Assembly (NCBI GenBank): GCA_004524515.1
Contig: SDNV01000016.1
Coordinates: 1 to 30,772, forward strand
Direction of reading: 5' to 3'
DNA length: 30,772 nucleotides
DNA from: Promethearchaeota archaeon
Lineage (GTDB): Archaea > Asgardarchaeota > Lokiarchaeia > Sigynarchaeales > SOKP01
Part shown: positions 2,933 to 27,277 of the stretch, in pieces
Layout of the letters: each line of letters opens with the position of its first letter
Numbering within the stretch: the stretch's first letter is position 1
Notes under the pieces: model-generated
Told to the model about the DNA's origin: nothing
The model's database searches: none
The model's input: the letters and a program-made list of their open reading frames with translations, nothing else
Translations under genes and position numbers: made by a program

Positions 2933-3460
2933 TTATTCCGCAATTACATTCTCCAAACAAGCTTTTGCAATCTTTTGGAATGCCAACTCCACGTTGTCCC
3001 CTGTCTTTGCTGAAGTTTCCAGATATTCACTACCAAGTCTTTTGGCTAGATCTTCTGCTTCCGCTCGATCCACCTGGCGCCCTAAATCTGATTTATTTCC
3101 TAATATTATCATAGGAATGGATTTTTTTACGGATTTTTTTATTGAACTCACCCAACCTGGTAATTTAAGCAATGATGGAAGACTATCAAGTGCAAAAACA
3201 CCAAGGGCTGCATTACTCCCCTTAAAATAGATAGTTCTAAGCTTAGCGAACTGGGCTTGTCCCCCTATATCCCACAATAATAATCTGAGATTTATATCAT
3301 CTATTTTTACATCTTTTATTAGAAAATTCGTTCCAATGGTTTTAATTAGTTTTTCATCAAATCTATCTTTTACATAGCGAATTAAAAGAGAAGTCTTACC
3401 CACTCCCCCAGCACCATAAACACAAATTTTAAATTTATATCCTTCCTCTATATCAGAGAT
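2933..3460 (-). CDS. Ras/Arf-type small GTPase (non-ATG start)
   Basis: Complete small GTPase of the eukaryote-like Ras superfamily that is abundant in Asgard archaea. The P-loop GAGGVGKTS is at about residues 16-24, switch I has the Thr of KTIGTNF, switch II is LLWDIGGQAQF (the WDxGGQ form seen in Arf-like and many archaeal GTPases), G4 is GNKSD and G5 ETSAK. There is no C-terminal prenylation box. No ATG, GTG or TTG lies upstream of the P-loop: after stops at 3473-3478 the frame reads KVITISDIEEGYKFKICVYG. The best start is ATC at 3458-3460, seven bases after AAAAGGT, giving 175 residues. The GTG at 3401-3403 lies inside the P-loop and would destroy it. A TATA-like box (minus strand, about 3535-3548) lies upstream. 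It converges on the HAD gene. Regulator partners are unknown. Confidence 0.93.
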   Translation of the reverse strand: MSDIEEGYKFKICVYGAGGVGKTSLLIRYVKDRFDEKLIKTIGTNFLIKDVKIDDINLRLLLWDIGGQAQFAKLRTIYFKGSNAALGVFALDSLPSLLKLPGWVSSIKKSVKKSIPMIILGNKSDLGRQVDRAEAEDLAKRLGSEYLETSAKTGDNVELAFQKIAKACLENVIAE

Positions 3461-3475
3461 GGTTATTACCTTTTA
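3458..3475 (-). promoter_or_regulatory. RBS and ATC start of the small GTPase
   Basis: Read on the minus strand, TAA is followed by AAGGTAATAACC and then ATC TCT GAT. The AAAAGGT element matches the archaeal anti-Shine-Dalgarno (GGAGGTGAT) in part and sits seven bases from the ATC. An in-frame ATA at 3464-3466 is too close to the element. This site decides the start because no canonical codon is available before the P-loop. Confidence 0.5.
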
Positions 3476-3681
3476 TCAGTTATTTGATATTAATATTGAT
3501 TATCTTTTTCTAATAATATTTGATCTATTCTCCCTATATATTTATATGTTTATGCTATATAATACTTCGCTAAAATTCATTTTAAATGTTGTTAAAAATA
3601 GATGTTGATTATAAAAAGAATTATCACAAGATTATTTGATTTTATTCAATATTTTTATAGAAGGTATTTTTTTACTCCGCT

Positions 3682-25334: not shown

Positions 25335-27017
25335 ATGGCACAATTAGGTGGTACACCCGTATTAATCATGAAAGAAGGGACCCAAAGAACTCGTGGTAAA
25401 GATGCTATGGAAAATAATATCGCAGCCGCTATTGTTATTGCTGAGGCCGTAAGAACCTCTCTCGGACCCCGTGGAATGGACAAGATGTTAGTGGATCAAT
25501 TCGGTGATGTGGTAATTACGAATGATGGAGCTACTATTTTAAAGGAAATCGATGTGCAACATCCTGCTGCCAAAATGATGGTCGAGGTTGCGAAGACCCA
25601 AGATTCAGAAGTAGGAGATGGTACAACTACCTCTGTAATTCTTACCGGAGAATTATTAAAAAGAGCTAAAAAACTGCTTGAGCAAAAAATTCACCCTACC
25701 GTTATCACAGAAGGATTCAGAAAAGCTGCAGAAAAAGCAGTTGAGATCCTTGATAAAATATCCATAAAAAGTGGTATTGATGATAAAGAAGGGCTTAAAA
25801 ATTCTGCGATGACCTGCATGGGCTCGAAAATTGTATCGGAAAGCAGAGAAAAATTAGCGGAATTATGCATTGATGCAATTCAAGCTATTGCGGAAAAAGT
25901 AGACGGAAAGTGGATGGCTGATATTGAGAAAGTTCAGATCCAAAAGAAAGAAGGAGATAGCATTGATGACACTAGCTTAATTAAAGGAATCATTTTAGAT
26001 AAAGAAGTTGTCAGTCCAGGAATGCCTAAAAAAGTAGCTGACGCTAAGATACTTTTAATTCAATCCGCCCTAGAAATCGAAAAAACGGAATTTGACAGCA
26101 AACTTCAAATCACCAGCCCAGAACAAATCCAACAATTCTTAGACGAAGAAGAGAAGATGCTTCGAACCATGGTCGAAAAAATTGTAAATTCCGGAGCTAA
26201 TGTGGTTATTTGCCAGAAAGGTATCGATGATATGGCTCAGCATTTCTTATCAAAAGCCGGAATAATGGCAGTTCGAAGAGTGAAAAAATCTGACCTTGAA
26301 AAACTCTCAAAAGCAACCGGAGGTATGATTTTCACTGACCTGAACGATATTACCGCAGATAAACTAGGTTATGCTGGATTAGTCGAAGAAAGAAAAATTA
26401 TGAGCGACAGCTGGATTTTCATTGAAGAATGCAAAGATCCTAAATCCGTTGTAATCTTAATAAGAGGAGGAACGGAACTCATCGTTGATGAGGTGGATAG
26501 ATCCCTACATGACGCTCTTTGTGTAGTTAGAGATGTGGTTGAAGACCAAAAAATCGTAGGTGGAGGTGGAGCTCCTGAGCTCGAAGTTGCAATTCAATTA
26601 AGAGAATATGCTTCCACACTTGGTGGTCGTGAACAATTAGCTGTTGAGATTTTTGCTGATTCCTTGGATATTATCCCAAAAACATTAGCAGAAAATGCAG
26701 GATTAGATCAAATTGATATCTTAATGAAATTAAGAGCTTCTCATCAAAAAGGAAATAAATTCGCTGGATTTGATTTAGAATCGGGAGATGTTGTGGATAA
26801 TATGATGACAGTAAAGGTTGTTGAACCTACCGTCGTAAAAGTTCAAGCTATCAAAAGTTCTGTCGAAGCAGCTTCCATGATTTTACGAATTGATGATGTA
26901 ATCGCGGGTGCTAAATCGGAAATGCCTCCAGGTATGCCTCCAGGCGGCATGGGAGGTATGGGTGGAATGCCTCCGGGCATGGGAGGCATGGGTGGTATGC
27001 CCCCAATGGACTATTAA
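25335..27017 (+). CDS. thsA: thermosome subunit (group II chaperonin)
   Basis: ATP-driven protein-folding chaperonin related to eukaryotic CCT. Domains run equatorial, intermediate, apical, intermediate, equatorial. Visible motifs include LGPRGMDKMLVDQFGDVVITNDGATIL (residues about 41-70), VGDGTTTSVIL near 95, the apical segment, and VVGGGGAPELEVA and AGLDQIDIL in the closing equatorial part. The C-terminal tail of Gly, Met and Pro (PPGGMGGMGG type repeats) projects into the chamber. The 560 residues are normal. A single gene is present; the letter of the paralog is arbitrary. Codon use here includes more C-ending codons than the neighbours, as expected for a highly expressed gene. Confidence 0.97.
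   Translation: MAQLGGTPVLIMKEGTQRTRGKDAMENNIAAAIVIAEAVRTSLGPRGMDKMLVDQFGDVVITNDGATILKEIDVQHPAAKMMVEVAKTQDSEVGDGTTTSVILTGELLKRAKKLLEQKIHPTVITEGFRKAAEKAVEILDKISIKSGIDDKEGLKNSAMTCMGSKIVSESREKLAELCIDAIQAIAEKVDGKWMADIEKVQIQKKEGDSIDDTSLIKGIILDKEVVSPGMPKKVADAKILLIQSALEIEKTEFDSKLQITSPEQIQQFLDEEEKMLRTMVEKIVNSGANVVICQKGIDDMAQHFLSKAGIMAVRRVKKSDLEKLSKATGGMIFTDLNDITADKLGYAGLVEERKIMSDSWIFIEECKDPKSVVILIRGGTELIVDEVDRSLHDALCVVRDVVEDQKIVGGGGAPELEVAIQLREYASTLGGREQLAVEIFADSLDIIPKTLAENAGLDQIDILMKLRASHQKGNKFAGFDLESGDVVDNMMTVKVVEPTVVKVQAIKSSVEAASMILRIDDVIAGAKSEMPPGMPPGGMGGMGGMPPGMGGMGGMPPMDY
26920..27008 (+). repeat. Gly-Gly-Met/Pro-Gly repeat tail
   Basis: In-frame short repeats of GGCATGGGAGG type encode the chaperonin C-terminal MPPGMPPGG and MGGMGG units. 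Such tails are usual for thermosome and GroEL-type chaperonins. The repeats are prone to length variation. Confidence 0.8.
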
Positions 27018-27261
27018 ACTCAATATATTTTTTCTTTTCTTTATTTTTATTTATCAATTTAAGATATTGATAAATCATTTCAAATATTTAAAAAAAATTC
27101 AATTTAATTCCTTTTTAGTTCATTAGATTTAATTATAGCAAATTTTAAATGAGAGATATTTAGTATATCTGTCTTTTAAGTCTTATAACAAATTTATAAA
27201 AAGTTAGCATAGTAGATATAAAAAAGAATTCAAAAAGGCACAAGAATTAGTATATTTTAAC

Positions 27262-27277
27262 AGAGGTGTTTACGATC
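27262..27277 (+). promoter_or_regulatory. Shine-Dalgarno AGAGGTG and ATC start of nuclease
   Basis: AGAGGTG at 27262-27268 is an excellent archaeal Shine-Dalgarno. It is followed by TTTACG and ATC GGC AAA. The only canonical codon here, GTG 27266-27268, is inside the element itself and cannot be both. ATC at 27275-27277, six bases away, fits best. Confidence 0.6.

Follow-up and report, generated by a model that had tools for sequence, protein, structure and literature searches.

A small conserved set of Lokiarchaeial genes probably starts translation at AUU or AUC, with the gene of initiation factor aIF1 as its central member and a likely feedback loop resembling that of bacterial IF3 on infC. 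As far as comparison of sequences can tell, these unusual starts are gene-specific and conserved, and not genome-wide as an earlier note on this DNA had suspected from four or five apparent ATT or ATC starts (3460, 5739, 23442, 27275 and possibly 16729). The window, that is the whole stretch of 30,772 nucleotides analysed, is from the Lokiarchaeia, which belong to the Asgard archaea, the group to which the ancestors of eukaryotes were closely related, and has a GC content of ~30%. Its AspRS is 86–87% identical to those of the metagenome-assembled genomes LW40_45 (L001, G001) and ABR15 (L002, G002), 76–82% identical to those at most of the 54 loci found and 60% identical at three Prometheoarchaeum loci; the genome-wide question was put to the genomes of relatives.

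Predicted AUU and AUC starts in the window

On re-reading the sequence the proposed codons were all located where they had been placed. Two of them, 5739 and 3460, are upheld as starts by orthologs and lie beyond chance, since they are common to independent genomes, and the remaining three fared less well. The features are collected in Table 1.

Table 1. Genes and start-region elements in the window
Feature	Position	Strand	Start or basis
Small GTPase gene (Ras-like)	2933..3460	-	Start ATC 3460-3458; Pfam Ras 4.7e-44
Shine-Dalgarno-like AAAAGGT	3468..3474	-	7 bases before ATC 3460; sequence read
In-frame stop TAA	5721-5723	+	Immediately before GGAAGGG
Shine-Dalgarno-like GGAAGGG	5724..5730	+	8 bases before ATT 5739; sequence read
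ArsR-like helix-turn-helix gene with membrane part	5739..6635	+	Start ATT 5739-5741, ortholog comparison
NTP transferase gene	15926..16771	-	Ordinary ATG or TTG start in overlap with preceding gene
Ribosomal protein L40e gene	23439..23603	+	Start ATA 23439 or ATT 23442; PF01020 above cut-off
Nuclease-like gene (MTES_1575/DUF559)	27266..27886	+	Start GTG 27266 or ATC 27275; Pfam above cut-offs

The ArsR-like protein of the window matches the Pfam families HTH_5 and DUF7347, both under the curated cut-offs. A search of 20 Lokiarchaeia genomes gave some match in 19 and a full-length ortholog in 15 (47–81% identity), among them one with an internal stop (G004). With the window counted, 15 of the 16 genes carry an isoleucine codon (ATT in 12, ATC in three) exactly 21 codons upstream of the conserved YYA, the sixteenth (L086) having ATC at 19 codons. 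No ATG, GTG or TTG occurs anywhere from the upstream in-frame stop to YYA in 10 of the 16; the usual codons seen in other members are a TTG in the window and a GTG in L088, each five codons before YYA, an ATG two codons downstream of the isoleucine codon in L080 and L081, and an upstream TTG in L089 and L090. An in-frame stop lies two codons before the isoleucine codon in nine genes, and by eye a GGAAGGT-like sequence stands ahead of it in most orthologs. The ATT start claimed at 5739 is thus borne out by its position in the orthologs and by the frequent absence of any usual codon, and we regard the ArsR-like gene as a well-supported candidate for an AUU/AUC-start member in the window.

An ortholog of the small GTPase was found at E ≤ 1e-55 in 52 of 61 genomes (the family of G001), and 34 genes, including that of the window, were read for their start codons. 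A usual codon lies within 14 codons of YKFK in 23 of these, 10 have none between the stop and YKFK, and in one (L107) the sole usual codon is a distant TTG. Besides the gene of the window and those of its two closest relatives (L098 and L099), the ten include seven more, some of which are nearly identical to each other. Among the 11 genes lacking a nearby usual start, GGT is found 7 bases before ATT/ATC in seven and GGG 8 bases before it in two, and in orthologs that do have ATG it falls no more than a few codons from this position. The ATC start claimed at 3460 is accordingly upheld, the lack of a usual start being shared with the two nearest relatives, and the small GTPase gene is the other well-supported putative AUU/AUC-start member in the window. 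A stronger Shine-Dalgarno sequence was considered as a mark of the unusual GTPase starts and rejected, as the scores fail to separate the two classes: a score of at least 4 was reached by 10 of 11 genes without and 22 of 23 with a usual start, and a score of at least 5 by 2 of 11 and 11 of 23 respectively.

In the L40e gene the window reads ATC ATA ATT at the start, with no ATG, GTG or TTG from the in-frame TGA (23433–23435) to the conserved PIDDP. The ATG of the nearest relatives aligns with ATA 23439–23441, not with ATT 23442; an ATG, TTG or GTG stands at one of these two places in 40 of 40 distinct stretches of relatives' DNA, the usual start being missing in the window alone, and the N-terminus is MSP, MAP or MP in 25 of 28 homologous proteins. 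The claim of an ATT start at 23442 was therefore right in that a usual start is absent, but ATT itself is not established as the start, ATA 23439 being another candidate. We consider the L40e gene of the window a probable, lineage-specific member of the AUU/AUC-start set. A 43-aa L40e protein with an internal Met start (P0025), present on 10 contigs, is perhaps another L40e without a usual start.

The nuclease has matches in two of 20 genomes, one of them close (71% identical). AGGT-N7-ATC is found at its start in the window and in one close relative, and in both an in-frame GTG three codons upstream of the ATC (27266 in the window) offers an alternative to the start claimed at 27275. The ATC at 16729, proposed as the start of the NTP transferase gene, is not sustained: an in-frame ATG (16771) and a TTG lie upstream of it, in the part shared with the preceding gene, and ATC or ATT is not conserved at this place in relatives, though the overlapping gene puts a constraint of its own on the upstream DNA. 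Nearby, ~700 bases of the window (15200–15900) contain no ORF of at least 60 aa and are AT-rich, with several short repeated-looking motifs.

Predicted start codons of the aIF1 gene

Of 59 genomes sampled across the phylum, 53 gave a SUI1 gene match, as did 16 of 19 further Lokiarchaeia genomes; 57 of these Asgard genes, and 10 of 12 added later, were read. After removal of duplicates, 52 genes with the zinc-knuckle cysteine as an anchor were classed, 13 without this anchor being left unclassed. More than half of those classed (29/52) have no ATG, GTG or TTG from the in-frame stop to the first cysteine, while 18 have ATG within 14 codons and five have GTG or TTG. Twenty of the 29 are distinct genes of the window's family (that of G001), with ATT in 19 and ATC in one, six or seven codons before the cysteine; five others have ATA (L198, L199, L200, L201 and L315) and four have CTG (L210, L309, L312 and L314). 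Family members that depart from this are L316, with GTG 11 codons before the cysteine, and L334, a second copy in G027, with ATG; the start region of L319 is masked by N. In these 20 family genes a codon other than AUG, GUG or UUG is thus conserved at the predicted start of aIF1's own gene. The leader contains GGTTGTGA in 17 of the 20, and TGTGA is found exactly 9 bases before the ATT/ATC codon in 18. In many Lokiarchaeial leaders (L298–L333) the conserved GGTTGTGA includes an in-frame TTG-TGA pair, and a start-stop element is conceivable.

Start codon usage across genomes

Of 25 ORF clusters in the neighbourhood of AspRS, we aligned the 21 largest, which comprise 747 ORFs in which usual starts dominate. 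Thirty-two ORFs were flagged for want of a usual codon close to the consensus start; clusters 12, 18 and 20, where the start column is uncertain, account for 22. ATT occupies the start column in two of the 32, the L40e gene of the window and L037 (cluster 8), and a few unflagged ORFs have ATT or ATA there together with a usual codon nearby.

In sampled stretches we compared the share of ATT, ATC and ATA codons preceded by a Shine-Dalgarno-like run with that of 55 other codons; these per-codon rates replaced a Shine-Dalgarno-anchored codon profile over all spacings, which was dropped because the motifs were too rare to give a clear picture. With runs of at least 5, the rates were 44/726 versus 179/4149 in G001 plus the window (uncorrected p 0.027), 25/413 versus 76/2209 in G012 (uncorrected p 0.011) and 30/329 versus 164/2875 in G029 (uncorrected p 0.013), with no excess in G075 (17/442 versus 133/3413, p 0.56) or G050 (6/91 versus 53/764, p 0.62). 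With runs of at least 6, the uncorrected p values were 0.10 for G001 plus the window, 0.0086 for G012, 0.0016 for G029, 0.96 for G075 and 0.56 for G050. The excess amounts to ~5–13 of 693 ORFs in G001, 7–11 of 351 in G012 and 10–11 of 494 in G029, and the maximum among 20 shuffled motifs was above the real ratio in all three at 6 or more and in G029 also at 5 or more. Across 715 ORFs from 49 Lokiarchaeia loci there was no excess (ATT 13/350, ATC 3/84, ATA 11/322, versus 3.0% for other codons). Excerpts of reviews describe Lokiarchaea as a group in which Shine-Dalgarno sequences are not widespread.

The suspicion of relaxed start selection throughout the genome was thus not confirmed: start columns yield two of 747 ORFs, and the Shine-Dalgarno-linked excess, present in G001, G012 and G029 and absent from G075, G050 and the 49 loci, is small and statistically weak. 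As the genome-wide signal is weak, the case is carried by the conserved single genes.

Several observations concern individual genomes. For ATA alone in G029, a run of at least 5 precedes 21 of 153 codons (uncorrected p 2.9e-4) and a run of at least 6 precedes 13 of 153 (uncorrected p 5e-5), which is nearly the frequency for ATG; the aIF1 of this genome has QGAH, and AUA starts are possibly in use in its lineage. A scan by coding potential for ORFs whose first usual codon comes late gave 7/371 in G001 plus the window, a rate not clearly above the 2/126 in G075, with 15/351 in G012, 2/108 in G029 and 1/106 in G050. This list was used for leads only, because G012 is confounded by masked runs of N and possibly by frameshifts; six ORFs (L184, L188, L194 and L180 in G012, L228 and L230 in G029) seemingly lack a usual start and carry ATT, ATC or ATA close to where the N-terminus is expected. 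In the L164 gene of G001, GGAGGT is followed 7 bases later by ATT, a position taken by ATG in 11 of 11 relatives, and an out-of-frame ATG adjoins the site; BLAST with 11 short stretches of this family returned no matches, and the family was then read directly.

The aIF1 protein and initiator tRNA

Counting duplicates, 45 of the 57 aIF1 rows have the QGDH motif. Variants are RGDH (G001, G002 and G024), MGDH (in three), QGAH (G029 and G039), QGEH (G003), QGNH (G063), and QGDQ and QGDW (once each). The LQGDH motif is reportedly the site of yeast sui1 mutations. G024 is also the genome of L037 with its lone ATT and G029 that with the ATA excess, which is suggestive, in few genomes, of a link between motif change and unusual start usage. 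Unusual starts did not prove confined to lineages with an altered aIF1: the ArsR-like and aIF1 genes have them alongside the common LQGDH as well. The suspicion that had fallen on the initiation factors proves apt in a different way, a usual start being absent from the gene of aIF1; the aIF1 protein of the window's nearest relatives departs from the common motif too.

An initiator anticodon-stem pattern (GGGCTNATAACCC), which misses intron-split genes, gave 15 hits spread over 11 of the 20 genomes, the other nine having none. Eight hits have the anticodon CAT; Rfam accepts six of them at E ≤ 0.01, and ARAGORN calls five, reading one as a Val tRNA with an intron; these initiator-like genes are in G003, G010, G024, G040, G057, G063 and G074. 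Seven hits have other anticodons (TAT in five, GAT and AAT in one each), lie in G002, G004, G024, G029 and G039, and are not called tRNA by ARAGORN or by Rfam at E ≤ 0.01. No initiator tRNA was found in G001 or G002 by this pattern, which is blind to split genes.

Alternative explanations

If start selection were relaxed across the lineage, for example through a weakened aIF1, then AUU, AUC and AUA would be used freely, which we judge unlikely. The replacement of ATG by ATT in single lineages (L037, and the L164 gene of G001 compared with its 11 relatives) is what such relaxation would produce, yet just two of 747 ORFs combine ATT as the start-column codon with the lack of a usual codon nearby. 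Likewise, the Shine-Dalgarno-linked excess for runs of at least 5 in G001 with the window, G012 and G029 fits this explanation, but it is not seen in the 715 ORFs of the 49 loci, and some of the 20 shuffled motifs reach an equal ratio. The changes of LQGDH in G001, G002, G024, G029 and G039 could reflect a weakened factor; however, unusual starts are also present alongside the common aIF1 motif.

It is decidedly improbable that usual codons are used after all, whether they lie downstream or are linked from upstream by a frameshift or by readthrough, and that the isoleucine codon is simply conserved coding sequence. While the ArsR-like genes supply possible downstream starts (TTG in the window and GTG in L088 before YYA, ATG after the isoleucine codon in L080 and L081), the interval lacks any usual codon in 10/16 ArsR-like, 10/34 GTPase and 29/52 aIF1 genes, and nine of the 16 ArsR-like genes have the in-frame stop two codons upstream of the isoleucine codon. 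Recurrence of the ArsR-like, GTPase and aIF1 cases across many independent assemblies makes it very unlikely that consensus errors removed ordinary start codons, although such errors may explain L40e, which differs from all relatives, and single-genome cases such as the L164 gene of G001, with its out-of-frame ATG beside the site. Finally, the unusual start codons might be read by an additional initiator tRNA whose anticodon is GAU or UAU, and the TAT, GAT and AAT versions matched by GGGCTNATAACCC could be taken for it; as neither ARAGORN nor Rfam (at E ≤ 0.01) calls any of the seven hits of this pattern, which would miss intron-split genes, we find this scarcely credible.

Proposed feedback through aIF1 and known systems

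We therefore favour a conserved AUU/AUC-start set centred on aIF1, in which these codons would probably be read by the ordinary CAU initiator tRNA, aided by the nearby Shine-Dalgarno-like sequence. The aIF1 gene, which encodes a factor known to disfavour non-AUG starts, lies elsewhere in the relatives' genomes and would begin at AUU, is the proposed central member: plentiful aIF1 would block initiation on its own AUU and scarce aIF1 would permit it, as with IF3 on infC, and the other AUU/AUC genes (ArsR-like and GTPase) would follow the same stringency. Predicted non-AUG initiation on the ArsR-like, GTPase and aIF1 genes is strongly supported by the alignments. Self-limitation by aIF1 is likely, judging from the activity that excerpts of the literature describe in another archaeon, from homology and from the codon; a role of aIF1 in discrimination here would likewise follow from SUI1 homology and those excerpts, and we infer that the ArsR-like and GTPase genes respond to this control. 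For a wider reading, in which Asgard archaea adopted aIF1 feedback through a non-AUG start more than once, with AUU in Lokiarchaeia, CUG in Thorarchaeota and AUA in others, and with the ArsR-like and GTPase genes tied in, the balance seems to us even. The usual starts within the aIF1 family (L316, L334) and the ATG in 18 of 52 Asgard aIF1 genes count against the favoured explanation.

Bacterial infC, which encodes IF3, has an AUU start with self-regulation. The likeness lies in a start-codon-discriminating factor with a conserved non-AUG start on its own gene; the gene family is, however, unrelated (SUI1 here), the leader differs, and self-regulation here is a proposal. According to excerpts of one article, aIF1 in Sulfolobus promotes discrimination against start codons that are not canonical, and eIF1 curbs the translation of its own mRNA via a poorly placed AUG (PMC6237735). 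Eukaryotic eIF1 is homologous to aIF1, and an aIF1 mRNA with a weak start would set up a loop of the same type, although the weakness is described there as poor AUG context, whereas here it would be the non-AUG codon itself. In excerpts of another article an ATT start, called rare, was inferred near a likely ribosome-binding site for the AtubA tubulin of Kariarchaeaceae (PMC13394414). This is likewise an Asgard gene whose N-terminus needs an ATT start by a likely ribosome-binding site, but it is a single gene, with no family-wide conservation or link to aIF1 described in those excerpts (PMC13394414). In the open-access literature searched we recognised no account of aIF1 limiting its own synthesis via a non-AUG start. 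If true, the use of a non-AUG start by the Asgard aIF1 gene would carry the principle of weak-start feedback over to archaea, by another route.

Annotation of N-termini

The N-termini of proteins with putative AUU or AUC starts are inconsistently annotated. Of the 180 aIF1 proteins found in the database, 27 were considered, and eight of these 27 begin MKDD. Copies begin at the codon itself (MKDDDICP), at the next ATT (MCPICSF) or far inside (70 aa, MVTVITF), which agrees with the confused N-terminal annotation that had been predicted. For the CTG aIF1 genes of G074 and G069, the matching proteins carry the name Thorarchaeota; one is annotated from the CTG and the other from the following ATA.
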